Shown: positions 22,378 to 37,938 of the stretch, in pieces
Layout: every line of letters starts with the position of its first letter
Numbering within the stretch: position 1 is the stretch's first letter
Assembly (NCBI RefSeq): GCF_003015185.1
Contig: NZ_CP027860.1
Location: forward strand, 4,020,501 to 4,084,500
Direction: 5' to 3'
Length of the DNA stretch: 64,000 nt
From: Ahniella affigens
GTDB lineage: Bacteria > Pseudomonadota > Gammaproteobacteria > Xanthomonadales > Ahniellaceae
Program-made: the position numbers and the translations under genes
Notes under the pieces: generated by a model
The model's input: the letters and a program-made list of their open reading frames with translations, nothing else
Told to the model about the DNA's origin: nothing
Databases searched by the model: none

Positions 22378-23223
22378 CTAAATTCGCCATTGGCCGACCG
22401 TTACGCGGTCGCGGCCTTCGATATCCTGAAGCGTTGACACATCGCTGTAGCCGGCATCGACGAACAGCGCGCGAATTGCATCGGCCTGGTCATAACCGTG
22501 CTCAAACAGCAGCCAGCCACCAGCATTCAGCCATTCCGGCGCCGCTTTGATCACGTGCCGGTACGATGCCAAGCCATCGCCGCCGGGCGTCAACGCCTGC
22601 AGGGGCTCAAAGCGCAAGTCGCCCTGTTGCAGGTGCGCATCGTGCTCGGCGATATAGGGCGGATTGCTGAGGATCAGATCGAAACGAAGACCGGGTTCGA
22701 TGCCCTGAAACCAGTCGCTCAAGTGAAAGCAGACCTGCGCCAATCCAAGCGCCTTCGCATTCTGTCGCGCAACATCCAGTGCCGCTGCCGACACATCGCC
22801 CGCGTGAACCGATGCCTCGGGCCGATTGGCCGCGATGGCCAGCGCGATGGCACCACTGCCCGTGCCCAGGTCGAGCACGTTGAGGGACTGCGTGTCGGGC
22901 AGGCGCGAGAGCGCCGCGTCGACAAGCAACTCGGTCTCGGGCCGCGGAATCAACACCGCGGGACTGACCGCCAACCTGAGACCATAGAACTCGCGCCAGC
23001 CCAACAAGTACGCGATTGGTTCGCCCTGCAGTCGACGCTGCCACAGGGCGGAGAATTGCGCGTGCTCGGCATCTGTCAGCGGTCGGTCGCCGTGACTGAT
23101 CAATCCAGCCCGGGACATACCCGTAACCGCCTGCAGCAGCAGCTCCGCCTCGCGTCTGGCCTCCGGGCCAGACGCGTCTTGCCGCGCGCCGCGCAATACC
23201 GCGGCTACTTGCAACGCCGTCAC
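22378..23223 (-). CDS. prmC: Release factor glutamine methyltransferase PrmC
   Basis: This 281-residue SAM-dependent enzyme methylates the GGQ glutamine of RF1/RF2. It has an N-terminal helical domain, then LIPRPETELLVDAAL, the SAM loop VLDLGTGSGAIALAI and the catalytic NPPYIAEHD, followed by EPLQALTPGGDGL. The ATG overlaps the stop of the upstream 1440-residue protein gene by 4 bp. Confidence 0.96.
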   Translation of the reverse strand: MTALQVAAVLRGARQDASGPEARREAELLLQAVTGMSRAGLISHGDRPLTDAEHAQFSALWQRRLQGEPIAYLLGWREFYGLRLAVSPAVLIPRPETELLVDAALSRLPDTQSLNVLDLGTGSGAIALAIAANRPEASVHAGDVSAAALDVARQNAKALGLAQVCFHLSDWFQGIEPGLRFDLILSNPPYIAEHDAHLQQGDLRFEPLQALTPGGDGLASYRHVIKAAPEWLNAGGWLLFEHGYDQADAIRALFVDAGYSDVSTLQDIEGRDRVTVGQWRI

Positions 23224-26200
23224 GAAGACTTCGGTGTGTCGCCCGAGTCGGGTTCCGATTCGAGCGGCAGTTCGCCCTGGCTCGTCTCGGGCAACGCCGG
23301 CGGCGCTTGCTCGGCATCACCCATCGCGGATGCATCCGGATCAGACGCTGGCAGGTCTGCTGGCTCACCGTTGGTTTCGGTCGCCGCGTTGGCGATTCCA
23401 TCCGGCGCGGTCGAGCCAGCGTCGGCTCCGGCCGGAGCCTGAGTTGCCGCCGCGATTGCTGCGGGCGCCTTCGGTGCGAACATCGGCTGCCACGCACCTT
23501 CGTGCAGGAACGCCGCCATCGCTGCCTTGCCCCAGCGAACCAGGGACCACGACATCCACAATGCCCAGGCCAGCATCAAGGTTCGGTACAACCAGATCGG
23601 CAGTGTCCAGGCGTAACCTTGCGGCAACAAGGTGTCGCTCAAGTCAGCAAACCACTTCAGATCGTTGGCGCCGTACCCACGGCTGATCACATGCAAGTCC
23701 GGCTGACCAATCAGACCCGTATTCAACGCCGCAAACAACGCAATCACCGCAAATAAAGTCAGCATCAACAGACCCAGCTGGATCAAATCGAACTTCCAGA
23801 ACCAGCCCGCCGGTTGGAGGCGTTTGCGCCAGTCAATCGCATACAACCATGCGGCAAACACAAACAGCGCAAACCACGACACGGTCGAAAAGCCCACGCC
23901 GAGCAAGATCCACTCGTGCAATTTGATCGACGTCCGTGCGAGCCGCGACAACGCATAGGCGAGCAGCAACATCACCAGCAATTCGCCCCAATAAAGCACA
24001 GCAGGCCCGAGCGCCGGACCGCGCGCGGCGATCAGCCAGCGGTCTTCCGGAATACTCATGCCGAGACTGAGGTTGGAAGCCGGCGCGCGCAGATCGACGA
24101 CCGGAGTCTGCATGCTCAATCCAGCGCCTTGATCCAAGTGTCGCCAGGTCACCGCAATCGTGCCATTGCCCGGGGTGATCGGCACCCGTAGCACACCCTT
24201 GTCAGGGCGCAGATTCAACAACGACCCATTGATCGTGACCGATAGGACCTCCGCCCCCTCGGGCAGCACGATGCCATGCTGACCACCCTGCGTCGCGCGC
24301 CACTGCAAGTTGAGATCGTGCTCAACCGAGCGCTTCGCGAAGCGCGATTGCACACTCACGTTGTCAAAGGCGATCGTCCCGCCCGGCACTGCTTCCGGTC
24401 GCGTCACTTGCACGTTCAGGCGCTCACCCGGCAGCGGGTAGTACTCGAACAGGCTCTCCGGATCGCCCGGGTACACCCCCGGCATGCCACCGACCAGCAC
24501 ATTCCACGTTGGGCTGGCGCTGATGACCCAAACCTCCGCACGCTCGTTCAACGACGGTGCATCGAGTTCGAGGCTCGGCACGGCATCGAGCCGCGATTCA
24601 AAGCTCACCGTGAACTGCCCATCGGCAAACGGCAACGTGATGATCCCGTCCTTGATCTGCACATTGGCATCGAGCACTCGTTCGCCAGCCAGCAACGGCA
24701 GCGTCACCGAAAACGCGCCCTCCTGAGGTGCGATGCGATCGACCGACGTGTAGACCGTCCAATCCAGATCGAAGTCGAGACGGCGCGTGACGCGCACGAA
24801 CGGATCAAACCGCTGCGCCACCCCAGCTTCCGCAACCGGCGCATCGCCAACGACCGTGCGGGTCAGATTCAAACTACCGGTGGTGAGTTGGCCTTCATTA
24901 ATGCCACTGACCTCCCAGCCGCCAAGTTCAGCATCGATCCATGCCGGAGCCATCGGGAACCCAATTTCGACGCTCGCCACATTGGCGATTCGCGCGTCCA
25001 CTTGTACGCGGTGCACCCCGCGATTCAGCACCGTCCAGTACCGGCCTTCGTCATCACGCACCAGGCGCTCGGTGACGACGCCATCAATGCTGACCGAGTC
25101 AATGCTGAGCTGCGATTCGTTACCGGGCAGCGGCACGGCGACACGACTGGCCGCTTCCAAGGTCAGCGCCAGACTCACCCGTTCGGCATCGCCGCGCACA
25201 TCCACTGTCGCAAGGCGCGCGCACCCAGTGTCCGCACATTCCGGTGCGGCCAACAAACGCGCTTCAAGCTGGTTGAGCACGTCCTGGCTCGGCACTGGCG
25301 GCTCATCCGCGTGGGCCACCGATCCCGCCATCAATAGAACCAGACCAAATCCGAGTTTGCGCGACGGCGGCGTTTGCTTGAAGTGCTTCAAGAGCATCGC
25401 GAGCAGCACCCACACCAGCGCGGCAACCATCACGAATCGGAAACCCGCAGTGAGCCAGGGGGGCGAGATGATCAGCCGCATGTTCTGGCTCGGATCGACC
25501 GGACCCTGGATCTGGAGGTTGTAGCCATGAAAGGTCCAACTCGGCTCAGCGTAGCCGTTCTGGACGACCACCGCGTTTGCCTCATAGCGCTTCATCTTCT
25601 TGGCCGGCCGACTGAGCGATTGCACCTTGTTCAGTTCAGAGTAGATGCTTGAGTCAGCATCCTGCACCACGTTCTGCTCCTCAGCTGCTTCGGGCTCTGG
25701 CGCGGCTGACGCCGGCATCGGTGCGGGCGGTGGGGGTGGCGGTGCTTCCGCATACCCTTGCTCTGCCATGCCGCCCAACATATTCATCCGACCATCAAAA
25801 TCGTTGACGCCGTAACTGCTGCTTAGCAGTTGCGGATAGAGGCCATAGCGAATCTGCTCAATCGCAAAGGGCACGCTGATGAACAACAACACCACGACGG
25901 CAATGCGCGCGACCCAGCGCGAGGCCACCGCAAACCAGCCCGCATTACTGAGCCCGCGCGCCACGGCCAATGCCACCAGCGCAACGATCAGAGCCGTGCG
26001 CGGCGCATCATACTCGTGCCAAGCAAACGCGACATAGACCAGCGGCACCAGGGCAGCGATCCGACCGAACAGCACCGAGAACAGGACGACCGTCAGTACA
26101 GCAAAGAACACGTCGAGCAAGTCCCACTTGTCGAGCCACGCATCGGGTGCACGGTCCATCCCGAGCGCTGCCCAGAGTTTGTATCCCGGGGGCAACTGCA

Positions 26201-27542
26201 AGTACGTGTCAACCGAGTCGAACGCCTGCGTCCAGCCGGTGACCGGCAGACTGCGGGCCCCGGACTCCTCGCGCGCGGTGGTATCGAGCGACAGGCTGCG
26301 ATGCCGCACTTCCACCCCCAGCGCCTTGTCGCCGACCGAACGCGTGATGAGCGAGGGTTCGCCATTCTCAACCGCACGCCCGATCTGAATCGGCTCACGG
26401 ACGTTCAAGCGCCAATCCTTTTTCAGTTCGCCGCGAATTTGATCCTTGATCGTCCACCCGCCGCCATCAAAATCGAGCCACAGCGAGCGCGCCAGACTGA
26501 GACGATTCGCATCGCCGGTCGCTAAGCCGCGGGAGTTCTCGGTAATGGCGAGCGCCGTATCGCCTTCGAGCATGTATGCCGGAAACTGCCGCCATTCCGA
26601 CGGCACTTCCGCGATGTTTGGATCGATCTGCGGCGGGCCGCCCGCTTCCGTCACGCGGAGCGCGCCATTGGCCTGATACGACCACACTTCCTGCGGCGGC
26701 CAGGGCGTCGAGCGAACGGTCTGCTTGATCTCGGCCAACGGGGTGATGGAACGCGCACCGAGCGTGACCGTAAACGTGCCCGGCCGGACTTGCACATGCA
26801 TGCTGCCATCGGCCTCCAGGCGCGCCGACAGATCGCCACGAATCCAGATGGGCTCAAAGCTTTCGGGCAACGGGGACGGCAGAATTTCCTCGCGACCCTT
26901 GCCGCTGATTTCGAATTGCAGACGCGTTTCGAGCGTGGCGGGAATCCCGTCCGTGACCAGGCGGAACACTTGCACGCTCAGCGCATCGGCCTCCACCGAC
27001 GTGCCTTCGGCCCGACCGAGCCAGAGCACACCATCCGCGCGATTCAACGGAAACACTGCACGACCATCGACCGTCAGCGCCACGCGCGCCACCGATTCCG
27101 GTACCGCGATCGATTCCGGGCGCTCGGCAAAACGCAGCCGACCGGTGATCGCGTAACTGCCCGCGTCCAGCCACAGCCCAGGTTGGTCGTCTTCGAACAC
27201 CACCGGTGCGGAATTGCCATCGACGTTGACATCGACCGGAGCCAGTTTCGAATTGCCGGGCAACGGCACAAAACTGCGATCGTAAAGCTCCCAAGTCTGA
27301 CTGAAGCTCGCGCTGTCGGTGCCCACATCGATCGTCAATCGGGAGGGCCAGCCGCACCAGAAGTCGTCGGCGTCAGTGTATTCGGCATCAAATTTGGCCG
27401 GGCATTGCCGATACGTCTTGTCGTAACGCACCCAGGCCTGCCAATCGCGCAGCACGGCGGGCAATTCGGCCTCAGTCGGCGGGGCCGCGGCCAAAGGCCA
27501 GGACAAGATGCACAACAAGCACGTCAACCAGTATCGCAGCAT
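23220..27542 (-). CDS. Large multidomain membrane protein of unknown function
   Basis: This 1440-residue protein has a signal peptide (1-20) and a periplasmic beta-rich region to about 470. Four or so helices follow (about 474-508, 515-530, 545-565), then a Pro-rich linker (about 600-612). A helix at 702-718 precedes a second signal-like segment (730-746, GFGLVLLMAGSVAHA) and another beta-rich region, with more helices towards the C-terminus (about 1170-1370) and a low-complexity acidic tail. The two beta regions share motifs: SFVPLPGNSKLAPVDVNVDG near 90-109 and VAVPLPGNESQLSIDSVSIDG near 801-821, so the protein looks internally duplicated or fused. I do not recognise the family. It is coupled to prmC by a 4-bp overlap. 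Confidence 0.85.
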   Translation of the reverse strand: MLRYWLTCLLCILSWPLAAAPPTEAELPAVLRDWQAWVRYDKTYRQCPAKFDAEYTDADDFWCGWPSRLTIDVGTDSASFSQTWELYDRSFVPLPGNSKLAPVDVNVDGNSAPVVFEDDQPGLWLDAGSYAITGRLRFAERPESIAVPESVARVALTVDGRAVFPLNRADGVLWLGRAEGTSVEADALSVQVFRLVTDGIPATLETRLQFEISGKGREEILPSPLPESFEPIWIRGDLSARLEADGSMHVQVRPGTFTVTLGARSITPLAEIKQTVRSTPWPPQEVWSYQANGALRVTEAGGPPQIDPNIAEVPSEWRQFPAYMLEGDTALAITENSRGLATGDANRLSLARSLWLDFDGGGWTIKDQIRGELKKDWRLNVREPIQIGRAVENGEPSLITRSVGDKALGVEVRHRSLSLDTTAREESGARSLPVTGWTQAFDSVDTYLQLPPGYKLWAALGMDRAPDAWLDKWDLLDVFFAVLTVVLFSVLFGRIAALVPLVYVAFAWHEYDAPRTALIVALVALAVARGLSNAGWFAVASRWVARIAVVVLLFISVPFAIEQIRYGLYPQLLSSSYGVNDFDGRMNMLGGMAEQGYAEAPPPPPPAPMPASAAPEPEAAEEQNVVQDADSSIYSELNKVQSLSRPAKKMKRYEANAVVVQNGYAEPSWTFHGYNLQIQGPVDPSQNMRLIISPPWLTAGFRFVMVAALVWVLLAMLLKHFKQTPPSRKLGFGLVLLMAGSVAHADEPPVPSQDVLNQLEARLLAAPECADTGCARLATVDVRGDAERVSLALTLEAASRVAVPLPGNESQLSIDSVSIDGVVTERLVRDDEGRYWTVLNRGVHRVQVDARIANVASVEIGFPMAPAWIDAELGGWEVSGINEGQLTTGSLNLTRTVVGDAPVAEAGVAQRFDPFVRVTRRLDFDLDWTVYTSVDRIAPQEGAFSVTLPLLAGERVLDANVQIKDGIITLPFADGQFTVSFESRLDAVPSLELDAPSLNERAEVWVISASPTWNVLVGGMPGVYPGDPESLFEYYPLPGERLNVQVTRPEAVPGGTIAFDNVSVQSRFAKRSVEHDLNLQWRATQGGQHGIVLPEGAEVLSVTINGSLLNLRPDKGVLRVPITPGNGTIAVTWRHLDQGAGLSMQTPVVDLRAPASNLSLGMSIPEDRWLIAARGPALGPAVLYWGELLVMLLLAYALSRLARTSIKLHEWILLGVGFSTVSWFALFVFAAWLYAIDWRKRLQPAGWFWKFDLIQLGLLMLTLFAVIALFAALNTGLIGQPDLHVISRGYGANDLKWFADLSDTLLPQGYAWTLPIWLYRTLMLAWALWMSWSLVRWGKAAMAAFLHEGAWQPMFAPKAPAAIAAATQAPAGADAGSTAPDGIANAATETNGEPADLPASDPDASAMGDAEQAPPALPETSQGELPLESEPDSGDTPKSS

Positions 27543-27771: not shown

Positions 27772-28449
27772 ATGCTGGTGGCTCTGAACAAACCCTATGG
27801 CGTGCTCTGCCAGTTCTCGGGCAATGACGGCCGGCCGACGTTGGCTGACGTCATCCAGAAGGCGCGCACCAACGCGTGGATTGACGCTGGCACCACAACC
27901 ACCCGACGCGACGATGACTTCGCGAATATCTACCCAGCCGGTCGACTGGATCTGGATAGCGAAGGCCTGCTGTTGCTGTCCGACGATGGCCCCTTGATCC
28001 ATCAAATCAGTGACCCCCGCGAAAAGTGGCCCAAGACCTATTGGGTGCAAGTCGAGCATCTCGCCACCGACGCCGAACTCGATGCACTGAGGCACGGTGT
28101 TGTGCTCAATGATGGCCCAACCTTGCCCGCCTCAGTGCGGTGCCTTGCGGATGCCGACGCCGAGTGGCTTTGGCCGCGCGATCCGCCGATCCGGGTGCGC
28201 GCGGCGATTCCCACTTGTTGGCTCGAAATCGTTCTCCGCGAAGGCCGCAATCGCCAGGTGCGCCGCATGACGGCAGCGGTCGGCTTGCCGACTTTGCGCC
28301 TGATTCGCACTGCGATTGGCCCGTATCGGCTCGATGGCCTCCTGCCGGGACATCTTCGTATTCTCGATGGCCAGCCGGCACCGGCGCGGATGCACGTACC
28401 CAGGCAGAAACCACTCCGACCACGTTTTCCCAAGCGACCTAAGCGATGA
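27772..28449 (+). CDS. rluE: RluE/RsuA-type rRNA pseudouridine synthase
   Basis: This 225-residue protein has NKPYGVLCQFS at the start and the catalytic motif AGRLDLDSEGLLLLSDDG with the nucleophilic Asp. Y-V-V-like strand KTYWVQVE and EGRNRQVRRM follow. It has no S4 domain, as in RluE, which modifies 23S rRNA U2457 in E. coli. The C-terminus is Arg/Pro-rich. TACACT lies only 7 bases before the ATG, so a short-leader transcript is possible. The 229-base gap upstream, shared with the divergent large membrane protein, shows nothing else clear. Confidence 0.92.
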   Translation: MLVALNKPYGVLCQFSGNDGRPTLADVIQKARTNAWIDAGTTTTRRDDDFANIYPAGRLDLDSEGLLLLSDDGPLIHQISDPREKWPKTYWVQVEHLATDAELDALRHGVVLNDGPTLPASVRCLADADAEWLWPRDPPIRVRAAIPTCWLEIVLREGRNRQVRRMTAAVGLPTLRLIRTAIGPYRLDGLLPGHLRILDGQPAPARMHVPRQKPLRPRFPKRPKR

Positions 28450-29195
28450 GCCAAACGCCGTTCAAAGACCACTTCTCTGGCCATGCCGACACGTATCGCC
28501 AGGCCCGCCCAATCTACCCGTCGGCGTTTCTGATGGCCCTGTGTCAATCGGCGCCCGGTCGGGACTGCTGCTGGGATGTCGGTTGCGGCAACGGCCAGGC
28601 CAGTGTCTTGCTCGCCGGCTGGTTCAGAACCGTCATTGCGACGGATCCGTCCAGCACCCAGATTGCCAACGCCGAAGCGATGCCAAACATCGACTATCGT
28701 GTTGAACCCGCCGAACAATCCAGCCTCGCCGATCGCAGCGTCGACTTCATCAGCGTGGCGCAGGCCTATCACTGGTTCGATCATGACCGCTTTGCCCGCG
28801 AAGTCCGCCGGGTTGCCAAGCCGGGGGGCGTCATTGCGGCTTACGGCTACCGGCACACGCAGATTGCACCCGACATCGACGCCTGGGTCGCCGAGCTCTA
28901 CGAGCCCGTGCTCGGCGCGGACTGGCCACCGGAACGTCGGCATGTGGATGCCGCGTTGCTCGATTTGCCGTTTCCGTTTCGACCAATCTCGGTGCCCGCA
29001 CATTCATTGACGCTGTCGTGGACGGTCGATCAGTTTCTCGGCTACCTGGAATCGTGGTCAGCCATGCAGCGCTATCGGAAACGAACTGGCACCGACCCGC
29101 TTGCGACGCGCGCGCCAGCACTCCGAGCCATGTGGGGCAATGGCCCCCGCGACGTGCAATGGGACTTGTTTGCGCGGGTCGGCGTGGTGGATTGA
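28446..29195 (+). CDS. Class I SAM-dependent methyltransferase
   Basis: This 249-residue methyltransferase has DHFSGHADTYRQARPIYP at the N-terminus and WDVGCGNGQASVLLA as the SAM motif. Motif II-like EQSSLADRSVDFISVAQAYHWFD follows. Proteins of this type are often annotated as trans-aconitate or ubiquinone-type methyltransferases, but the substrate is not known. The start overlaps the RluE-type gene by 4 bp, indicating an operon. Confidence 0.9.
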   Translation: MSQTPFKDHFSGHADTYRQARPIYPSAFLMALCQSAPGRDCCWDVGCGNGQASVLLAGWFRTVIATDPSSTQIANAEAMPNIDYRVEPAEQSSLADRSVDFISVAQAYHWFDHDRFAREVRRVAKPGGVIAAYGYRHTQIAPDIDAWVAELYEPVLGADWPPERRHVDAALLDLPFPFRPISVPAHSLTLSWTVDQFLGYLESWSAMQRYRKRTGTDPLATRAPALRAMWGNGPRDVQWDLFARVGVVD

Positions 29196-29227
29196 CGGCC
29201 TACCCGGCGTACGACGGACGCCGTCAA
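29192..29227. terminator. Inverted repeat between convergent genes
   Basis: TTGACGGC (29192-29199) pairs with GCCGTCAA (29220-29227) over a 20-base loop. It spans the ends of the methyltransferase gene and the convergent ABM-domain gene. There is no clear T-run, so it is a weak bidirectional terminator candidate. Confidence 0.35.
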
Positions 29228-29538
29228 CGCGGGTGCTGATACGCGCGCAGAATTTCGACGACTTCCACGTGATACCCCGAATACCAGCGGGTTCGTCCGA
29301 GTTCCTGTGCTTGCAGATGCGTTGCATCCTGTTGCCAGGTTCGAATCGCCTCGAGTGACGGCCAATACGACAGCGCAATCTCCTGATCACCTTCTGTCAA
29401 CGCATGAAAGGCCAGACAGCCGAAGTCTCGCAACGCGCGTTCGCGAAGCGCGGCCGCCGTGCGGCTGTATTCGTCGTCGAACGCTGCAACGGTTGCACGG
29501 AACACCACCACATAGCGGGCGTCGGACACATCAGACAT
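29224..29538 (-). CDS. Antibiotic biosynthesis monooxygenase (ABM) domain protein
   Basis: This 104-residue dimeric ferredoxin-like protein starts RYVVVFRATVAAFDDEYSRT, with GCLAFHALTEGDQEIALSYWPS and a W-Q-D-A-x-H-x-x-A region typical of ABM/YgiN-like proteins. Members include quinone-forming monooxygenases and heme oxygenases but many are uncharacterised. It lies 75 bases downstream of the LodB-type flavoprotein on the same strand and may be the last gene of the CTQ-oxidase cluster. Confidence 0.8.
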   Translation of the reverse strand: MSDVSDARYVVVFRATVAAFDDEYSRTAAALRERALRDFGCLAFHALTEGDQEIALSYWPSLEAIRTWQQDATHLQAQELGRTRWYSGYHVEVVEILRAYQHPR

Positions 29539-29613
29539 GTTGCAGGACTCCAGTCAGAACTTGGGCCGTCGCCCAACGCTTTCGACCCTTCACGACCGAG
29601 AGCCGTGAGGTGG

Positions 29614-30738
29614 TTACGCCGCTTGCCGTCGTTGCCAGAATGGCGACTCCGGCCAACGCTGCTCCAGTGCATAGAAATAGCGCCGCTGCTGCCAGTATTG
29701 AGCATAGCGCGTGCGCACCATCAGACCATACTGCAACAAGGCACTTGCGTCGCCCTGAAGCGCTGTGTTGATGGCGTCCGCTGCGGCCACACCCTGCACA
29801 AATGCCTTGTGGAGCCCTTGCGCTGAAATCGGATCGAAACTTGACGCTGCGTCGCCCACCGCCAACCAGTCCGCCCCGACACACGGCTCCAGCACACTGC
29901 TGGCGGCCAGCAACCGAATGGGTCGCTCGTGACGCCAACGCGCCGCGCGCGTCAGTTCGGCAATATGGCGCGTGGCCGCCGCTTTGGTCAGCCAGCCGCT
30001 GACTTGATCCATTCGCCGCGACCGGATGACATCCGCGTCACTACTAAAAGCCACGATCGCCCGACCGCTAGGCAGGCGCGCCGCATACCACCAGCCGTCG
30101 GCTTCCGCTTCGAGCAAGGTCAGCGAATCCAGCGCGACCGCATCCGCATCGACGTCCAAGAATGCGGCTGCGACCAGCATCTGATCATCGCACTGTCGGC
30201 GCGCGCCAAGACGGCTCGCCAGCAGGGCTTGAACGCCACCAGCGTCGACCACAAAATCGGCCTTGACCAAGATGGCTTGACCATCGCGTTCGAGACTCAG
30301 GATCCGACCCGAACCACGGTTCGGCGCCACGTCGCGAAAGCGTGTATTCGAACTGAGCAGCATCCCGCGTGCCCGAACCGAATCTGCTAACCACCGTTCG
30401 AACTCACTGCGGTCCAGATGCCAACCCGGGCCATGCGGATCAACGATGAAGTCGTTGTAGCCGAGCGTCTCGGTGCCCCATGCTGAGCGACTGCCGAGGC
30501 ATGTTGCATGGGCCTCGGACGGGAACGATTCGAGCAACCCGAGTGTCGCCAGCACGCGCCGGAAATCTGGCGGCACACTCTCGCCCACTCGCTCGCGTTG
30601 ATATTGGCCTGCCTCGATCACCAATACATCGGACACGCCCAGCTGGTGCAAGCGCAGCGCCGTGGCGCAGCCCGCCGGGCCACCACCAATGATGACTACC
30701 CGCACGTGCAGAGGCAGTGGGCGATCGGTGGGCGTCAT
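29614..30738 (-). CDS. LodB-type FAD-dependent oxidoreductase
   Basis: This 374-residue flavoprotein has the FAD site VVIIGGGPAGCATALRLHQLG near the N-terminus, GESVPPDFRRVLATLG (halogenase-like GESxxP motif) and the second FAD motif WLAVGDAASSFDPISAQGLHKA. In Marinomonas the flavoprotein LodB is required to build the cysteine-tryptophylquinone of LodA. This gene lies next to a LodA-like gene on the same strand, so I infer the same maturation role. A tryptophan halogenase-like activity is the alternative. The gap to lodA is 143 bases and contains a strong hairpin. Confidence 0.87.
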   Translation of the reverse strand: MTPTDRPLPLHVRVVIIGGGPAGCATALRLHQLGVSDVLVIEAGQYQRERVGESVPPDFRRVLATLGLLESFPSEAHATCLGSRSAWGTETLGYNDFIVDPHGPGWHLDRSEFERWLADSVRARGMLLSSNTRFRDVAPNRGSGRILSLERDGQAILVKADFVVDAGGVQALLASRLGARRQCDDQMLVAAAFLDVDADAVALDSLTLLEAEADGWWYAARLPSGRAIVAFSSDADVIRSRRMDQVSGWLTKAAATRHIAELTRAARWRHERPIRLLAASSVLEPCVGADWLAVGDAASSFDPISAQGLHKAFVQGVAAADAINTALQGDASALLQYGLMVRTRYAQYWQQRRYFYALEQRWPESPFWQRRQAA

Positions 30739-30775
30739 GCGGCACTCATGATTGGTCAGGGCGCTTGTTTATGCC

Positions 30776-30801
30776 CCCGCTCCCACGCGAATGGGAGCGG
30801 G
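30776..30801. terminator. Strong hairpin between the oxidase and flavoprotein genes
   Basis: CCCGCTCCCA and TGGGAGCGGG form a perfect 10-bp stem with a 6-base loop (CGCGAA). It lies between the LodA-like stop and the LodB-like start on the minus strand. There is no T-run, so it may be an attenuator or an mRNA-stabilising structure that sets a lower level of the maturase. Confidence 0.5.
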
Positions 30802-30881
30802 TCGTCGAGAGGGCGACTTGCGACACAATAGCCCGACCTTCAGCCAGCCAAGAATCGATAGACCATAACCCCCTCATCCGG

Positions 30882-32933
30882 TCAGTTCGGCGATGGCGTC
30901 AGACCGTTGATCGGCCAAGGCTGCACCTCAGAATTGCTATCGTCAAACTGGCTTTGCACTTCCAGATACCAGTCATCCTGAAACGACCCGCTGACCGTAT
31001 CGATCTGCGTCGCTTGCAGAATCGTACCGACCTCCGGCCAGTGCCGCATGAAGTCGATGTATTGCTGAAAGCGACCTTGGTTGGACGGATCACCAGACGC
31101 CGTTCCAAAACCGCGGATCGACAGCCGCTGCGTGTTGAGATCGCCGTGGCGCGCGTCGTCGGCGGTGTACACCGCGAACGGCCGCTGTGCGGGCCAAGAC
31201 CAATACAGCGTGGTCTGCGCGGGCTGCGTGTTGTCCGCTGGGTTCGGGGCAGTCTGGTGCGTTCCGCAGGAGTTGTAGTCGGTATGCCACGGCACGGACA
31301 TGAACTTCGAGGCATCGCCTGGCTCCAGGCCGTCCGACTCCCGGTGCAATGGCACCCAACCCTCGCCAAGGAATGGTTGTTTGTCGCTCGCCTTCGCGTA
31401 GTCCAATGCCGCTTTGTGAATCCGAAACGGACCGCTTCCGCGCGCCCGCCAGTCCACTTCATACAAGCCTGGCTGGCGAATGATGAACGTCATGTCGATA
31501 CCAGGACTGAAGCGGCCACCCAGACAGTTGATCAAGGTGTCGCGGTCCAATTGATCACCAGCCCCCATCGGCCGCGCGTCGCCATGAAAACAACCGCGCT
31601 CCCATTGTTCGAGCAGGAAGTACTGCGTGTGCCTGGGTGACAGGAACGCCCGGCCGTTGTCGCCCAGGGACAAAGGCATGAACGGCGCGCCTTGGTAGTT
31701 GCTCTGCGGCAGATTCGGATCGCGCACAAATGCGAGCCCCGACATGATCGTTTCTTTCGGGTTGTCGGTCGCTTGGATTTGCCCCACCGCCTCATGCGCG
31801 CGAATCGCGAATTTCGGCAAATTGGTGTTCCAGCGCTGCGTCGCCGCAGCAACGAAGAACGGCAGCACCTGATCCGGGAACCACGCCCGGTAGTCGCGGT
31901 TGTACACACCGTTTTCGTAGAGATCGGGCTCCAGATTCAACTTGCGCACCCACGTGTCGTAGATGTCGTCCCACAGCGACACGGCGTTTTGCGTTTGCGG
32001 CGCAAACGACGGATCGGTGACATTCAGCCAGGCACCGTGCACGGCCACGCAGCTCCCATCATCAAACACGAGAGTCGCGTCTACCGGGCCATCCGAACAA
32101 TCATCAAACCAGCCATCGTTATCGACCGCATCCTCAAGCGGCGCGGGTTCGAGGCCGCCACCTGGCGTCGGGGTTTGAATGGCCGACGCGCGCCCATACC
32201 CACCCGGCACGATCAACCGGCCGGCGTCGTCCGTCAGCATCTCGCCCAGTGTATCGATCTCACCCCATGGGTTGTAGAGCGAGAAGCTGTCGCGCGGGAA
32301 CGACTTTGGATAGTGCTTGATCTCAACGATCTGGTTCTGGATCGGGTCGTAGTAGCTCGCTTTGTCGCTGACATTGAACTGGCGAACGGACTTTTCGCTC
32401 GCCTTCAAGGCGCGCGGACCGGGATCGATGACCAGCTTCCGAAGGCGCAACACGTCATTGCCATCAATGCCTTGATCGAGGTTGCGAAGCGGTGGCAAGT
32501 TGCCTTGCTCATAGCCCTGAATCAGCAAATCGCGATCACCTACATCGGGATTCTCCAGCACAAATTGATTGGCTTTTTTGTTGGCAAGATGCACCTGCCA
32601 AATGATGTCGACCACCGTGCGACCTGCGACTTTCGAACCAATTGTGATTTCGAAAGATTCGGGCGCGGGATACGTTCCCGCCTGTGACGGCGCATAGGCA
32701 TAAATCCGAAACCGCTGCGCATGGCGAACCAACCGACCGTCGGCGTCGCGCAGCTCCGAGCTCTTGATCGGCTCATTGGTCTTGGCATTGATTGGGATAC
32801 CACCGTTGTAGCGCTTGCCCGCAATTGGCATCCCAGCGGCGGTTTCTGGCGCCAGATAATAGTCCGGACTATTGCCGACGCGCGAGAAGCCGATCGCCGG
32901 ATGCACTCGGAATGAGTAGGCTTGATGAGACAT
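30882..32933 (-). CDS. LodA/GoxA family CTQ-dependent amino acid oxidase
   Basis: This 683-residue quinoprotein oxidase belongs to the L-lysine epsilon-oxidase/glycine oxidase family. The N-terminus HPAIGFSRVGNSPDYY is characteristic, as are CLGGRFSPGIDMTF (470-483) and SVPWHTDYNSC. In LodA the cofactor is built from a Cys and a downstream Trp, with an essential Asp four residues before the Cys. Here Asp552/Cys556 keep that spacing, and Trp578 or Trp580 (YWSWPAQRP) are the candidate partners. The Cys-Trp spacing is 22-24 residues, shorter than in LodA. The family releases ammonia and H2O2 and can be antibacterial. No Sec signal is visible. GGAGG stands eight bases before the ATG. Confidence 0.93.
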   Translation of the reverse strand: MSHQAYSFRVHPAIGFSRVGNSPDYYLAPETAAGMPIAGKRYNGGIPINAKTNEPIKSSELRDADGRLVRHAQRFRIYAYAPSQAGTYPAPESFEITIGSKVAGRTVVDIIWQVHLANKKANQFVLENPDVGDRDLLIQGYEQGNLPPLRNLDQGIDGNDVLRLRKLVIDPGPRALKASEKSVRQFNVSDKASYYDPIQNQIVEIKHYPKSFPRDSFSLYNPWGEIDTLGEMLTDDAGRLIVPGGYGRASAIQTPTPGGGLEPAPLEDAVDNDGWFDDCSDGPVDATLVFDDGSCVAVHGAWLNVTDPSFAPQTQNAVSLWDDIYDTWVRKLNLEPDLYENGVYNRDYRAWFPDQVLPFFVAAATQRWNTNLPKFAIRAHEAVGQIQATDNPKETIMSGLAFVRDPNLPQSNYQGAPFMPLSLGDNGRAFLSPRHTQYFLLEQWERGCFHGDARPMGAGDQLDRDTLINCLGGRFSPGIDMTFIIRQPGLYEVDWRARGSGPFRIHKAALDYAKASDKQPFLGEGWVPLHRESDGLEPGDASKFMSVPWHTDYNSCGTHQTAPNPADNTQPAQTTLYWSWPAQRPFAVYTADDARHGDLNTQRLSIRGFGTASGDPSNQGRFQQYIDFMRHWPEVGTILQATQIDTVSGSFQDDWYLEVQSQFDDSNSEVQPWPINGLTPSPN

Positions 32934-32951
32934 GACGAAGTCCTCCGAGGC

Positions 32952-33962
32952 TCAAGAAAAACGCGGGATGGCGCCTTGGCGCCAGCAATCCAGAATGTTG
33001 CCGCCCAGGGTGACCATGTTCGGCCCGAAGTTGGCCGGGCTGCCACCGTTGAACAGGCTGACCATGTCGCCGCGGAAGCGATTGAAATTGCGGACCAGAA
33101 TGGCCTGAGCCGCAGCCCCCGCTGAGCCCGGGGGCGGATTCGCGACGCCTTCGTAGCACGCTTCCCGGCGTTTGATGTCCTTGATCAGGTTGAACCGCGC
33201 AAAGTGATCCATGGGTTCGTTGAAGCCATCGGCGGTGTTACGGAATCGATTCGGCACCGTGTTCGTGCGCCGCACGCCCTCACCCTGATCGGTAATCGCC
33301 GAGATCAGATCGATCACTTGCTGCAGGCCGGTCACGCCCGCACTGCTGACCGTTTGATCTGGGAATCCACGATAGTAGTTCTTGAAAATGTCGACCTGAT
33401 TGACGTTTGGGCGTATCGCTTCGACATGCTGCGTAGCGCCGAATTGCACGGCCCGATAGAACTCGCCGATCGTGCTGTATTCGCTGACGCGCTGATTGAG
33501 CTTCGGCGGTTCGGCCACATCGTCTTCAGGGTACTCGATCAAACACATGGCATTGATCCGAAGCTCATCGAGCGGACCAATTTCGGCGCTGTAGGGCCGA
33601 TAGTTCTGTCTGGGATCAAGCGGATCGTCGTCAACCTCGCCGTCCGTAAATTGCAGATGCGGAACGTTTTGGCCCTGGTACTCGGGGACAATGAACGCCT
33701 GTTCGAGATCGATCGTCGTACCGAATGCGTTGGCCACATTGCACGCCAGTTGTACGTGCAACATTTCCTGATTGACCACCGCCTGAACCAATTTGAACGC
33801 GTTGCTGGTCGGGTCTTTCACTGAGTACATGGCGGCCATGTAAAACGGAATCGTCCAGTATTCAAGCTGGATCGCAAACTGCAGGTGTTGCCTCAGGTGT
33901 CGAATATTCCAGTGGGTTCCAATCGTCGTGGCGGAAATCGCCGGGTCAGCACTGACATTCAT
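32952..33962 (-). CDS. VioB-type ferritin-like protein
   Basis: The protein has 336 residues from ATG 33962, which has GGAGG eight bases upstream. The N-terminal part IRHLRQHLQFAIQLEYWTIP with E34, E66-M-L-H69, E143 and E167 fits the di-metal four-helix bundle of the ferritin-like domain found in VioB/RebD iminophenyl-pyruvate dimer synthases. Here the domain stands alone. The gene lies 18 bases upstream of the LodA-like gene and 123 bases downstream of the heme-binding-family gene, so it is probably part of one operon. Its role with the CTQ oxidase is unknown. Confidence 0.88.
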   Translation of the reverse strand: MNVSADPAISATTIGTHWNIRHLRQHLQFAIQLEYWTIPFYMAAMYSVKDPTSNAFKLVQAVVNQEMLHVQLACNVANAFGTTIDLEQAFIVPEYQGQNVPHLQFTDGEVDDDPLDPRQNYRPYSAEIGPLDELRINAMCLIEYPEDDVAEPPKLNQRVSEYSTIGEFYRAVQFGATQHVEAIRPNVNQVDIFKNYYRGFPDQTVSSAGVTGLQQVIDLISAITDQGEGVRRTNTVPNRFRNTADGFNEPMDHFARFNLIKDIKRREACYEGVANPPPGSAGAAAQAILVRNFNRFRGDMVSLFNGGSPANFGPNMVTLGGNILDCWRQGAIPRFS

Positions 33963-34085
33963 GAACAAGCCCTCCAAGTGATCGTAAGCGGATGGCCCCC
34001 AAGCCATCCGCTCGTTCCCAGTGTTCAGTTCGCGGCGGGCACATCCATGCCGCCGCACATCCTGGTTGTTCGCAATTCCAATCCG

Positions 34086-34991
34086 TTATTGCTTAACCAG
34101 CGTCGCCACCGAAATATGCGGCCAGTGAATGCCATCGAAGTCGAGCATCACGCGCTGCACGTACTGCAATTGCTGGAAGCTCGTACCATCGGGCAACGCA
34201 ACCGTTTCAATCCAGAAGATGGCATCCATCTGAATGGTGTCGGCGTTCTTGACCACGAAGGGAATATTGACAATACCGCCCGGGCTGGCCGTGGTCACTT
34301 CAATCACAACGGTACGGGTGATTGTCTGATTGGCGATCGCTTCCTGCAGCAGAATCACCGGGTTCCGCACGACATCGGCCGGATCGGCACTCGTGATCAC
34401 GCCTTTAGGCAATGTCGGCCGCTCATAGGGGCCTTTGTAGCCAAGTGGCGCCTTCAAAGGCGGATTCGGCACTTGGTTCAATTTGGGCAGCGGATCGCCC
34501 GTGATGGTGAACGGGATGGAGTCGACCGGCAACAATGTGGGTCCACCAGGATGATCCGCGCAGCGCACGCTCTGCGCGAACAATGAATCGCCATGCGGAA
34601 TGGTCGACAGACGCGCGTAAGTTTCGTCCTGAGGCGGCGCGGTCGTCTTCGGAATCCGGAGCCAAAAGCCGGGCTCGATATGCAGCGCCGCATGCGTGTC
34701 AAGGTCACTGACACGCTGCAAGTAGCTCAGGCCATGAATGAAGATGTCGTCCTGCAGCGAGCCACGATTGGGCACAGCACCCCCAATCGGCGTGAACTCC
34801 AAGGTCTCGATCATGCCGTTCAGCATCAGGAAAAAGATGTGCCCGTTTTGCTTGTCCGGGCGCGCGATCAGGTTGAACCCGGTGCCTACCCAGGTGCCGG
34901 CAAATTCGGACAGAAGACCGAGGTCATTCGATACCGCCGCACTGCCCGGTGCAATGCGCTTCAACATCTGCAGCTGCCTACTCTCAATCAT
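34086..34991 (-). CDS. Heme-binding family protein (nitrobindin/FABP-like fold)
   Basis: The protein has 301 residues from ATG 34991, with AGGAG eight bases upstream; an open frame further upstream is non-coding. NDLGLLSEFAGTWVGTGFNLIARPD resembles bacterial proteins annotated as heme-binding, a lipocalin-like G-x-W motif. ALHIEPGFWLRIP, ARLSTIPHGDSLFAQ and WPHISVATLVKQ are also conserved in that group as I remember it. No heme ligand can be assigned with certainty. It is the first gene of the minus-strand cluster leading to the CTQ oxidase. Confidence 0.7.
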   Translation of the reverse strand: MIESRQLQMLKRIAPGSAAVSNDLGLLSEFAGTWVGTGFNLIARPDKQNGHIFFLMLNGMIETLEFTPIGGAVPNRGSLQDDIFIHGLSYLQRVSDLDTHAALHIEPGFWLRIPKTTAPPQDETYARLSTIPHGDSLFAQSVRCADHPGGPTLLPVDSIPFTITGDPLPKLNQVPNPPLKAPLGYKGPYERPTLPKGVITSADPADVVRNPVILLQEAIANQTITRTVVIEVTTASPGGIVNIPFVVKNADTIQMDAIFWIETVALPDGTSFQQLQYVQRVMLDFDGIHWPHISVATLVKQ

Positions 34992-35218
34992 GGTTTGATC
35001 TCCTGGACGTGACGGAACAAACGGCAACGACGTGCCGTGCAAGCAACCTTTCTGGGAGTGGGGCAGATCGCGGCAATCGCCATGGCAACACCATTGCCGT
35101 CTGCATCGAATGCCAAGACAGCGGCGCCAGATAGCGCAATGCACGTGTGCTCATCGAATCCACCCAAGAATCTGGCTTCGGCTCCGACACCGGTCGGCGT
35201 CGGCGGAAGCGCCAAAAG

Positions 35219-35264
35219 ACTATAGTCCTACCAGATGACGATTGCCAGTCAGCGCAACTGGTAG
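35219..35264 (-). promoter_or_regulatory. Putative promoter and dyad of the CTQ-oxidase cluster
   Basis: On the minus strand TATAGT (35219-35224) is a good -10 box; CTGGCA, 18 bases upstream of it, is a 4/6 -35. The dyad CTACCAG (35228-35234) / CTGGTAG (35258-35264) spans the -35 region and could be an operator. The implied leader to the ATG at 34991 is long, about 220 bases. Confidence 0.4.
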
Positions 35265-35300
35265 TCGCAAGAGTCCGCGCGATCCGGCTGATCAGTCGCT

Positions 35301-35336
35301 GTGCGATTTCGCACGAGCGTTGTCCGGAACCGGACA
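35301..35336. promoter_or_regulatory. Two adjacent palindromes, probable activator sites
   Basis: GTGCGATTTCGCAC (6-bp arms, 35301-35314) and TGTCCGGAACCGGACA (7-bp arms, 35321-35336) lie six bases apart. They lie about 85-120 bases upstream of a -24/-12 element facing the permease gene, the normal distance for enhancer-binding proteins. They also lie about 80-110 bases upstream of the divergent cluster promoter. Confidence 0.55.
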
Positions 35337-35420
35337 CGCCGGTCTGAATCCAACCACTCTGAACGGCAAAACTGGCGCTGAACCCGCCATTTCTGGCGCC
35401 GTTGCGGTAGCGGTTTGCGA

Positions 35421-35435
35421 TGGCATGGGATTTGC
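35421..35435 (+). promoter_or_regulatory. Sigma-54 type -24/-12 promoter
   Basis: TGGCATGGGATTTGC matches the RpoN pattern TGGCAC-N5-TTGC with the invariant GG and GC exactly ten bases apart. It lies 74 bases before the permease ATG and faces it. Together with the upstream palindromes it suggests RpoN-dependent, activator-driven transcription. Confidence 0.6.
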
Positions 35436-35508
35436 GCTGACGTAGATGCGTCGGCGTCGGCGCGTCGGCGTTGTTGGCGCCGCTTTCCAAGACAAGGAGT
35501 CCGAAGTC

Positions 35509-37938
35509 ATGCGCGAGTTTCAGTTTGCATTGCGCCGCCTGTTGCGTCATCCATGGTCCAGCGCGGCCATGTTGATCGGCATGGGCCTGAGCTTCGCCAT
35601 GGTCATCACGACCGGCGCCTTGAGCCGCGCCTTGCTCGCTGTACCCGATGCCTTACCGACGGCCGATCGCGTTCAACTCGTGACACTGGCGCCAGAAGGC
35701 AGCGCCGGCGACCCAAGCCGACGGACGGTCTGGTCGTATCCGGCCTACCAAGCCTTGCAGGCGGCGATGGGTCCGACCCAGTCCGTTGAGGCAGTGACGT
35801 TGAAACCGATTTCATTGACCGTGGCAACCCCAGGTGGCAGCGTGCGCGCGCCGGTTGAAATCGTGTCGCCCGGCTATTTTCAGGCGTTGTCAGTCGCGCC
35901 AGAACGCGGCCCGGGATTCAGCACGTCCGCGGCCATTGGCACCCAGGAACTCGTGATTTCGGCACTGGAATGGCAGCGTCGCTTTGCCGGCAATCCCAAC
36001 ATCATCGGGCAGTCGGTCCTCGTGCAGGGTGTGCCGTTCATCGTGGTTGGCGTGCTGCCGGCGGGGTTTCGCGGGCTGTCGGAGCAGGCGGACTACTGGC
36101 TGCCCATGGCCGCTGCGCCCGCTGTCACGTTTCCGTCCCGATTGAAGGGCGCACAGAGCTTCTGGCATTCCGTGTTCATCGTTGATGACCAGACATCACC
36201 GCACGCCGCGCAATGGCAGGCGCCAGCCAAAGCGGTGGGCGCAGCCATCAATCTGCAGCAAGCGGGTCGACCGGTTGGCGTTCAGATCGCGACCGTTTCT
36301 TGGCGCCAGTGGCGCCTGGACCCGAGCCTGCACTCGGCACTTCGGGCACTCAAGCTGTGCAGCCAGATCATGTTGGCGATTGTCACGCTGAATCTTGGCA
36401 TGGTGGGACTCGCCCGCCTGAGCAGCCGACGCCGCGAGTTGGGCATCCTTGCCGCCGTAGGTGCGACCGCATGGCGCTTGATGCTCGCCACGACCGGCGA
36501 GCTGTTGCTACTTCTTTGTGCCGGCCTGTTGTTGGCCTGGACCATCGCAGGCATTGTGCTTGCCCAACTACCTGTGTGGTTCGGCAATTTGCTCGGCAGT
36601 AGCGTGACGCCCGCTAGCCTGGCCTTGGATCTGCCCCAACTCCTGAACGTCGGCCTGATCGGTCTGCTCGTCGCCGCGCTCCTGATTGCGCTTGCCGGTG
36701 GCCTGGGCCAATTGGCGCGCACCGCCGAGTTGGTTCGCGGCGGCGACAACCGACCGGTGCAGCGTTGGCACAGCTGGATCGCCGGCATCCAGTTTGCGCT
36801 GGCCAGCGCACTCACGCTGGCGGCCGTATTGGCTGCTGGCCTGGCGTGGCGCTCGGTGCAAACGCCTTTGGGCTTTGATCCCGAAAACGTGTTAAGCGCG
36901 CAGATTTCGGTCCCGGCTGCGTTGCGGCCCGCTGACGGTACGGCCGGCGCGATGATGCGCATCGAGTCAGCGTTTCAACAGGCACCGGGCGCGAAGGCAA
37001 TTGGCGCGGCCGGCTGCCTGCCGGTTCAGGGCGGCTGCGACTTCGTGAACGTCACGCCTGCGGGTTCTGGTCAAACGACGGAATGGCCTGCAGGATTGAA
37101 TCAGATCGACGGTGCGTATCTCGATGCGATGGGCATCCGTGTGTTCAGTGGTCGCAGCTTCAACACCGCCGACCGCGCCGACAGCCAACCCGTTGCAATA
37201 GTTAATCGCAGTTTTGTCGACCGCTATCTGCCGGCCGCCAATGCCTTGGGGCAGCAAGTCAGCGTCAGTGTTGGCTGGCCGGAATCTGGCAGCGCGGAAA
37301 TCGTCGGCGTCGTCGACGATACCTTGGGCACCGACCTGGATGCAGATCCCGAGCCGATGATCTACCTGCCGATGGCGCAGATGGCCTACGACGACAACTT
37401 TGTCGTCATCAAACTCGAACCTGGTACGGATGTGCTCACGGTCAGCACCAGCCTTGAAAAGCTTCTGGCCCGGACCGAACCGAACCTCGCACTGTTTGAC
37501 GTGACGACGATGAGTCAGCGCTTTGCGAATCTGACCGAGCGGCGCCGCATCGCGGCGTTACTCGTGCTGACCATCACGGTACTTGCCGTGCTGTTGGCCG
37601 CGGTCGGCGTATTCGCCACGTTTAGTTTGAATATGGCGCAGCGCCGGAAGGAACTGGCCGTGCGCTTTGCGCTGGGCGCCCGCGTGCGCGACCTGCGGCA
37701 GTTGATCGTGCGCCAAGTACTGCGCTTTGCCAGCGTCTCGGCGCTGCTCGGGCTGGGGCTTGGGGCGCTGTTCGCCAATCGTCTCGCCGCGCAGTTGCCG
37801 ATGTTGGATCAGCAGGTGCCGACCCCTTACTTGCTGGTCTTGCTGATCATGACGGTGACGACCGTGCTGGCAGTCTGGGTGCCTACCCGCCAGGCGCTTC
37901 GCGCCGAGCCGACTGAGGCGCTGAAGGCCGGCGGCTGA
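35509..37938 (+). CDS. Orphan FtsX/MacB-like ABC transporter permease
   Basis: The protein has about 809 residues from ATG 35509, with AAGGAG nine bases upstream; the frame opens earlier without a ribosome site. MREFQFALRRLLRHPWSS starts the first helix. A MacB-like periplasmic domain follows (SPGYFQALSVAPERGPGF, a G-x-F pattern), then an FtsX block (residues about 290-410), a second periplasmic domain (NRSFVDRYLP, VGVVDDT) and a second FtsX block ending ALRAEPTEALKAGG. No ATP-binding subunit is adjacent. The preceding RpoN-type element suggests inducible expression. Confidence 0.9.
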   Translation: MREFQFALRRLLRHPWSSAAMLIGMGLSFAMVITTGALSRALLAVPDALPTADRVQLVTLAPEGSAGDPSRRTVWSYPAYQALQAAMGPTQSVEAVTLKPISLTVATPGGSVRAPVEIVSPGYFQALSVAPERGPGFSTSAAIGTQELVISALEWQRRFAGNPNIIGQSVLVQGVPFIVVGVLPAGFRGLSEQADYWLPMAAAPAVTFPSRLKGAQSFWHSVFIVDDQTSPHAAQWQAPAKAVGAAINLQQAGRPVGVQIATVSWRQWRLDPSLHSALRALKLCSQIMLAIVTLNLGMVGLARLSSRRRELGILAAVGATAWRLMLATTGELLLLLCAGLLLAWTIAGIVLAQLPVWFGNLLGSSVTPASLALDLPQLLNVGLIGLLVAALLIALAGGLGQLARTAELVRGGDNRPVQRWHSWIAGIQFALASALTLAAVLAAGLAWRSVQTPLGFDPENVLSAQISVPAALRPADGTAGAMMRIESAFQQAPGAKAIGAAGCLPVQGGCDFVNVTPAGSGQTTEWPAGLNQIDGAYLDAMGIRVFSGRSFNTADRADSQPVAIVNRSFVDRYLPAANALGQQVSVSVGWPESGSAEIVGVVDDTLGTDLDADPEPMIYLPMAQMAYDDNFVVIKLEPGTDVLTVSTSLEKLLARTEPNLALFDVTTMSQRFANLTERRRIAALLVLTITVLAVLLAAVGVFATFSLNMAQRRKELAVRFALGARVRDLRQLIVRQVLRFASVSALLGLGLGALFANRLAAQLPMLDQQVPTPYLLVLLIMTVTTVLAVWVPTRQALRAEPTEALKAGG

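Follow-up and report, generated by a model that had tools for sequence, protein, structure and literature searches.

Among the nearest known relatives of the genes considered here are the lodA-lodB and goxA-goxB pairs of Marinomonas mediterranea, which encode an oxidase with a cysteine tryptophylquinone (CTQ) cofactor and its flavin adenine dinucleotide (FAD)-dependent maturase. LodB completes the CTQ in LodA, and LodA yields an imine or aldehyde together with H2O2 (PMC4417212, PMC7876137). The descriptions consulted give the Marinomonas lod operon two members, lodA and lodB, and mention no ferritin-like protein. A 2015 survey reports ferritin-like genes near five fungal lodA genes (group V), where lodB is oppositely oriented, genes for tyrosinase and multicopper oxidase in lodA operons of group ID, and fusions to PF14518 and catalase-fold domains, and it places a Caulobacter protein in group IB (PMC4417212). 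A Caulobacter LodA-like protein forms H2O2 in biofilms, and a lysine oxidase activity was not found in that organism (PMC4417212, PMC4699246). In the VioA-VioB system, the imine made by VioA is dimerised by heme-containing VioB (PMC9705886). Here we analyse a 64,000-nucleotide stretch of the Ahniella affigens genome (the window; contig NZ_CP027860.1, positions 4,020,501 to 4,084,500), in which a LodA-LodB pair is preceded by a stand-alone ferritin-like protein of family PF12902, here called Fer.

The arrangement Fer-lodA-lodB is a conserved operon in one clade of LodA, and the linkage of Fer to LodA is far beyond chance. The sample was the best 80 of 303 LodA relatives and hence stands for the LodA subfamily to which the window protein belongs; at each locus we looked with profiles for the five protein families encoded at the window locus. 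In 25 of these 80 loci the gene immediately before lodA, in the same orientation, is Fer; 24 came from a filter, and L092, whose LodA start had been mis-called, was added. L090 counts on the strength of a 66-aa Fer fragment where its contig stops, and it was labelled by hand, as was L129, a locus at a contig edge and not one of the 25. The Fer-lodA loci come from seven phyla (Pseudomonadota, Acidobacteriota, Cyanobacteriota, Planctomycetota, Bacteroidota, Myxococcota and Actinomycetota), and several are in metagenome bins. With the window, two further genomes and an Azospirillum plasmid there are 29 Fer loci, 28 of which allow the gap between Fer and LodA to be measured. Its median is 16.5 bp, with gene starts set mechanically and some gaps (down to -220) being start errors.

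The pairing also follows descent. In a quick tree of 86 LodAs built without a mixture model, the 29 Fer-linked rows make up one side of a single branch (Shimodaira-Hasegawa-like approximate likelihood ratio test, SH-aLRT, 98), which requires one change; none of 500 shuffles gave a count as low. The tree leaves out L061, L062 and L063, which are the same places as L128, L113 and L137, and the more distant L024, L064-L071 and L076. Pairwise protein distances over 19 loci correlate with r of 0.75 for LodA-Fer, 0.74 for LodA-LodB and 0.43 for Fer-LodB (0 of 5000 permutations in each case), so the link of Fer to LodA is about as close as that of the maturase LodB. The 19 loci omit a far clade of three and four near-copies; the r of 0.93 from 26 loci is inflated by that clade. 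That Fer adjoins LodA in all members of the branch that were examined suggests that the two work as a pair and are not neighbours by chance. An even sample of 299 Pseudomonadota genomes contained LodA in nine, the window's own included. Among the other eight, Fer stands beside LodA in two (G001, G006) and a tyrosinase in two (G102, G111), while no Fer was found beside LodA in G154 and G196; these counts omit G186 and G200.

The window locus has the following features, given in window coordinates and in order of transcription.

35219..35248, minus strand: sigma-70-like promoter match upstream of the heme protein gene, not above chance
34086..34991, minus strand: heme protein (NF040572 heme_bind_FMP, nitrobindin fold), 301 aa, accessory
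32952..33962, minus strand: Fer, stand-alone ferritin-like protein (PF12902), 336 aa counted from the ATG
30882..32933, minus strand: LodA-type CTQ amine or amino-acid oxidase, 683 aa, LodA_N and LodA_C domains
29614..30738, minus strand: LodB-type protein with FAD, presumed to mature the CTQ of the LodA encoded before it, 374 aa
29224..29538, minus strand: small ABM-like protein, 104 aa, borderline PF03992, probably a bystander

The original prediction, made from the DNA letters alone, had placed these five genes at 29224-34991; the coordinates are exact, and Pfam and NCBIfam agree with its family calls. Its pairing of a LodA/GoxA-like quinoprotein with a LodB-like flavoprotein holds, LodB being present in 83 of 86 loci, and the VioB-type di-metal protein that it listed upstream does belong with the two.

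The window LodA matches LodA_N at 167.5 bits (Pfam cut-off 26.3) and LodA_C at 121.5 bits (cut-off 25), and it aligns with the solved lysine 6-oxidases 3weu/2ymw. Its C556 and W580 align with the CTQ-forming C516 and W581 of LodA, the Cys and Trp that the Marinomonas oxidases also conserve, and both residues, with nearby D552, are kept in 86 of 86 aligned LodAs. By its domains and these residues the protein belongs to the family of CTQ quinoproteins; its own quinone and oxidase activity are predicted. It scores 229.5 bits against the 600 required by the lysine oxidase equivalog NF038172 and 123.5 against the 750 required by the glycine oxidase equivalog NF038173; it falls so far under both cut-offs that its substrate should not be named lysine or glycine. 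LodB matches the maturase models NF038171 (maturase_LodB, 261.3 bits) and NF038174 (259.7 bits), each under the equivalog cut-off of 400, and the Pfam families FAD_binding_3 and Trp_halogenase. In the three LodA loci where it was not seen, the stretch stops at LodA (L141, L156) or LodB lies past 8 kb (L082). A scan of viral contigs for LodA gave one pattern match and no relative.

Fer matches PF12902, a family that takes in part of VioB as well, at 126.6 bits (gathering cut-off 22.3), and its residues 18-336 align with the solved ferritin-like protein 3hl1 (E 1.4e-86), whose sequence in that alignment is nearly identical to the Fer of Caulobacter vibrioides (L089). The same structure was the best template for modelling VioB, at 19.85% identity (PMC9705886). 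The predicted di-metal ligands of Fer are E34, E66, H69, E143, E228 and H253. All are present in 19 of 19 LodA-linked rows, save E228 in 18 of 19, and together with Q226 they are identical in all nine Fers compared, both those linked to LodA and those linked to glucose-methanol-choline (GMC) flavoproteins. We read Fer as a predicted di-metal, probably di-iron, enzyme. The Fer-lodA pairing gives 3hl1 a likely working context. CC_0557 of Caulobacter is a candidate for the 3hl1 gene, the one C. vibrioides genome searched having a single PF12902 gene, but CC_0556, which two papers term a catalase, has no obvious place in the gene order at L089.

Within this subfamily the occupant of the slot upstream of lodA goes with the LodA clade, and where it is not Fer it is mostly another metal protein. 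In 40 of the 80 loci this is a protein of 420-652 aa with a CXXCH motif, invariant in 28 of 28 aligned members; in seven it belongs to the tyrosinase family, as checked for one of them (PF00264, 90.6 bits); and in five LodA itself carries an iron-redox domain, PF14518, as a fusion, again checked for one (65.9 bits). Two Xanthobacter loci have no slot partner among these 80, and the contig of L129 stops too early. The six partner labels need five changes on the 86-LodA tree, the fewest possible. No residues conserved at 85% in both groups were found that distinguish Fer-linked from CXXCH-linked LodAs. The CXXCH protein has a weak fold match to cytochrome P460/c'-beta (best Z 5.9), with nothing under E 0.001 in Foldseek; one member has a sub-threshold Pfam P460 match (20.2 bits against 27), and the best hit of the CXXCH protein among PDB sequences is unrelated (E 0.042). 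We treat cytochrome P460/c'-beta kinship as a lead only. Judged by eye, the hydrophobic N-terminus and CXXCH motif of the CXXCH protein make it probably an exported protein. The member at L128:5498-6979 has no NCBIfam match, and those at L061 and L062 have no Pfam match.

Parts of this picture are in print. The fungal group V loci, like the window, have a PF12902 protein beside lodA and lodB, but their lodB has the opposite orientation (PMC4417212), whereas the window type is a collinear bacterial operon found in seven phyla. Group ID operons likewise carry a metal oxidase gene, a copper tyrosinase where the window has a ferritin-like protein (PMC4417212). We found no paper in the open-licence literature that states either the bacterial Fer-lodA-lodB operon or the partner-by-clade rule, and a literature search under the NCBIfam family name found nothing.

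PF12902 proteins are not confined to LodA. A count over 398 Pseudomonadota genomes found them in 17, among which is that of the window. Of 18 Pseudomonadota genes whose surroundings were examined, with three weak partial matches omitted, four stand beside LodA, six beside a GMC flavoprotein and one beside a flavin amine oxidase. Plasmids of Agrobacterium larrymoorei, Pararhizobium sp. A13 and Rhizobium sp. CB3171 (three of five plasmid heme loci opened, among 14 records with a match) carry a GMC-Fer pair together with the nitrobindin-like heme family. Such plasmid clusters of GMC flavoprotein, PF12902 protein, small protein and heme protein share the Fer and heme families with the window, but the GMC flavoprotein replaces LodA and LodB. 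A cluster of this kind, with a small protein of about 160-180 aa and without LodA/LodB, recurs in L025, L026, L030 and L156, and in L156 it adjoins a CXXCH-LodA pair.

Three LodAs and five PF12902 proteins are encoded in the A. affigens genome. Besides the window operon it has a short LodA of 469 aa with its CTQ residues kept, a divergent Fer and a very divergent, weak LodB (L070:6102-9969), a LodA-LodB pair without Fer (L071), one GMC-Fer pair and two PF12902 genes without a recognised oxidase. In C. vibrioides, the one genome searched, the sole LodA and the sole PF12902 gene are side by side. The PF12902 domain is also seen fused to CDGSH and divergent 4Fe-4S domains (L187:5991-7973), and at L184:4064-6010 a 648-aa protein without family matches lies directly upstream of a PF12902 gene; the start of that protein presumably resembles the start of VioB.

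Our leading reading, held tentatively, is that these genes form a two-enzyme oxidative cassette. LodB, with its FAD, would complete the CTQ cofactor of LodA; LodA would oxidise a primary amine or amino acid with O2, giving an imine or aldehyde, H2O2 and ammonia; and Fer would act on the reactive imine or aldehyde, on the peroxide, or on both, as VioB acts on the imine from VioA. The nitrobindin-fold heme protein would be an accessory that not every locus needs; its simplest role would be that of a peroxidase, or of a sink that takes up peroxide or reactive nitrogen. We infer that Fer acts on the product or peroxide because it has an intact two-metal ligand set, is inherited with the oxidase, and belongs to a family that recurs beside unrelated oxidoreductases, VioA-VioB included. 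The Fer of the second Fer-lodA pair in the genome (L070) also points this way, with a weak partial match to the VioB model, at 40.8 of 1250 bits. In the violacein system, too, an amino-acid oxidase precedes a protein part of which is PF12902-like, and heme is involved, but VioA is a flavin oxidase where the window has a CTQ enzyme, and VioB is a single long chain (its model spans 1003 positions), whereas in the window Fer is a protein of its own and the heme protein is another, with a different fold. Of the suggestion that the cluster is an oxidative tailoring or defence module, tailoring is the best-supported reading, and defence found no backing. An anti-phage defence system was rejected, since PADLOC matched none of the five proteins at E 0.01.

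Several points weigh against the cassette. To our knowledge no substrate, product or metal is known for any member of the Fer clade. Seven of the 18 PF12902 genes have no recognised oxidase of the three kinds beside them, in a Pfam check that covered some neighbours only, and peroxide at the GMC-linked genes is assumed, because GMC flavoproteins can be dehydrogenases. The window Fer has no match to the VioB equivalog TIGR04492 (no NCBIfam match at E 0.01). Finally, a Fer that is inherited with LodA as tightly as LodB could equally well be a maturation factor.

That role is the main rival, and we consider it unlikely but serious. Fer would be a second maturation factor, a di-iron oxygenase that adds the first oxygen to the CTQ tryptophan, or a protein that delivers metal, before LodB acts, and the other slot proteins would do likewise in other clades. 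Besides tracking LodA as tightly as LodB does, Fer is one of several interchangeable metal proteins that fill a single slot. For LodA and GoxA an autocatalytic first hydroxylation is proposed, one that in LodA depends on copper, and the di-heme protein MauG offers a precedent through its related role for tryptophan tryptophylquinone (PMC7876137). However, the Marinomonas operon is described with lodA and lodB only, LodB alone is reportedly sufficient for recombinant LodA, the third LodA of A. affigens (L071) has a LodB and no Fer, the commonest slot protein is probably exported, and PF12902 genes are found next to flavoproteins as well, enzymes in which no quinone has to be made.

The third reading, also unlikely, gives Fer and the heme protein at the head of the window locus a purely protective part. 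This heme protein scores 278.6 bits against NF040572 (cut-off 150). Searches of PDB sequences gave nothing at E 1, and a profile search gave an unrelated best hit (E 0.12). A model built from nine relatives (predicted local distance difference test, pLDDT, 78.5; predicted template modelling score, pTM, 0.80) is a barrel of about ten strands that best matches 2fr2, with Z 17.3 and a root-mean-square deviation of 2.0 over 158 residues. Human and plant nitrobindins follow at Z 16.0 to 14.8 (3ia8 at Z 16.0) and Rv0813 at Z 14.0; entries after the nitrobindins drop to Z 11.8, and Foldseek is concordant. Since its best fold matches are nitrobindins, we read the modelled protein as a nitrobindin fold with long insertions, with heme ligation and nitric oxide (NO) or peroxynitrite chemistry putative. 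His292, in a C-terminal WPH motif, is invariant in nine of nine alignment rows and stands at about what we take to be the place of the nitrobindin heme ligand; the aligned ends of the fold match agree.

The linkage of this protein to Fer is real but sporadic, making it an optional accessory. It lies within 8 kb in five of 29 Fer loci and in one of 57 other LodA loci (Fisher p 0.015), next to Fer on its upstream side in the window and Lentzea loci, divergently in G001, and downstream in Anammoxibacter and Okeania; the Lentzea protein is a weaker family member by profile (205.5 bits in NCBIfam). A di-heme oxidoreductase (Pfam DHOR, "putative peroxidase") occurs in four Fer loci, in three directly upstream of Fer and in one divergently upstream, and the CXXCH protein occurs in three of 29. 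Taken together, 11 of 29 Fer loci have any of these three heme families nearby, and none was found in the other 18. In Okeania (L082, 2335-13085) Fer, LodA, a CXXCH protein, a second LodA, a nitrobindin-like heme protein and an end-cut LodB stand in one cluster.

A purely protective role would have Fer consume peroxide or store iron, with the nitrobindin-like protein a sink for peroxide or peroxynitrite. The modelled nitrobindin fold and the di-heme oxidoreductases next to Fer would suit this, as would the fall of Caulobacter CC0556-57 (called a catalase and a ferritin-like protein) under iron limitation or fur mutation (PMC3751524). A general protectant need not follow one LodA clade exactly, however, and other LodA clades, by family also peroxide-forming, use other partners.

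We think it improbable that the CTQ enzyme is not mainly an oxidase but passes electrons, in the manner of quinohemoprotein amine dehydrogenase, to a metal or heme protein encoded next to it. The invariant CXXCH of the protein in half of the slots and the heme proteins in 11 Fer loci point that way, but LodA and GoxA are oxidases, the Caulobacter LodA-like protein forms H2O2 (PMC4417212), and 18 of the 29 Fer loci yielded none of the three heme families searched for. That unrelated redox genes merely adjoin by chance is hardly credible, being excluded for Fer-lodA-lodB by the locus counts and the tree and unlikely for the heme protein given its Fisher p of 0.015, and it holds, as far as tested, only for the ABM gene.

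The ABM gene is probably a bystander. Its PF03992 match is borderline (22.5 bits against 23.1), and no relative was found in the other 85 LodA loci by a profile made from one sequence, which distant ABM genes could escape; it is absent from the short contig of the closest relative, L079, whose LodA is 70% identical. A five-gene unit is rejected, as ABM is seen solely at the window locus among 86 LodA loci. The original prediction had taken the five-family combination as one unit and had proposed a gene-neighbourhood check of its co-occurrence. That check retains Fer-lodA-lodB, conserved in seven phyla, and drops the combination of five; the heme protein is linked in five of 29 Fer loci but is no constant member.

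Beyond the window, a wider and distinctly speculative idea is that LodA-type CTQ enzymes are one half of modular two-enzyme systems in which the metal catalyst encoded upstream is swapped (ferritin-like di-metal protein, CXXCH heme protein, fused PF14518 domain or tyrosinase). The partner would decide the fate of the reactive imine or nitrogen, and some pairs may carry out oxidative nitrogen chemistry such as N-oxygenation or N-N and C-N coupling. The last is conceivable because two of the heme-partner folds, nitrobindin and the weakly matched cytochrome P460/c'-beta, are tied to NO and hydroxylamine chemistry; we know of no description of such chemistry for a tryptophylquinone enzyme. Many LodA-like proteins have no known substrate, and the partner-by-clade rule is a direct handle on them. 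Under this rule each LodA clade has a metal-redox partner of its own, and an oxidase is best produced and assayed in the company of its partner. A missing partner may, at a guess, partly explain failed lysine-oxidase assays, as with Caulobacter.

The five genes are transcribed on the minus strand (29224-34991) in the order heme protein, Fer, LodA, LodB, ABM, with gaps of 123 bp (heme-Fer), 18 bp (Fer-LodA), 143 bp (LodA-LodB) and 75 bp (LodB-ABM). They form one directional group, because they are flanked by a divergent ADOP permease-like gene at 35446 and a convergent methyltransferase gene at 28446 (Pfam, NCBIfam). The promoter match listed above was the sole one in 28900-35600, with 1.9 expected, and a terminator scan gave four terminator-like sites against 6.3 expected. 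Further off, 23220-27542 holds a 1440-aa open reading frame with a sub-threshold Pfam match only and none in NCBIfam. A hairpin between lodA and lodB was considered as a dedicated regulatory element and rejected; the spacer fold is of ordinary stability (z -0.90), and the 26-base palindrome at 30776-30801 is a copy of a dispersed repeat, which at up to two mismatches the genome matches 68 times in forward and 66 times in reverse orientation, against 0 and 0 for a control.

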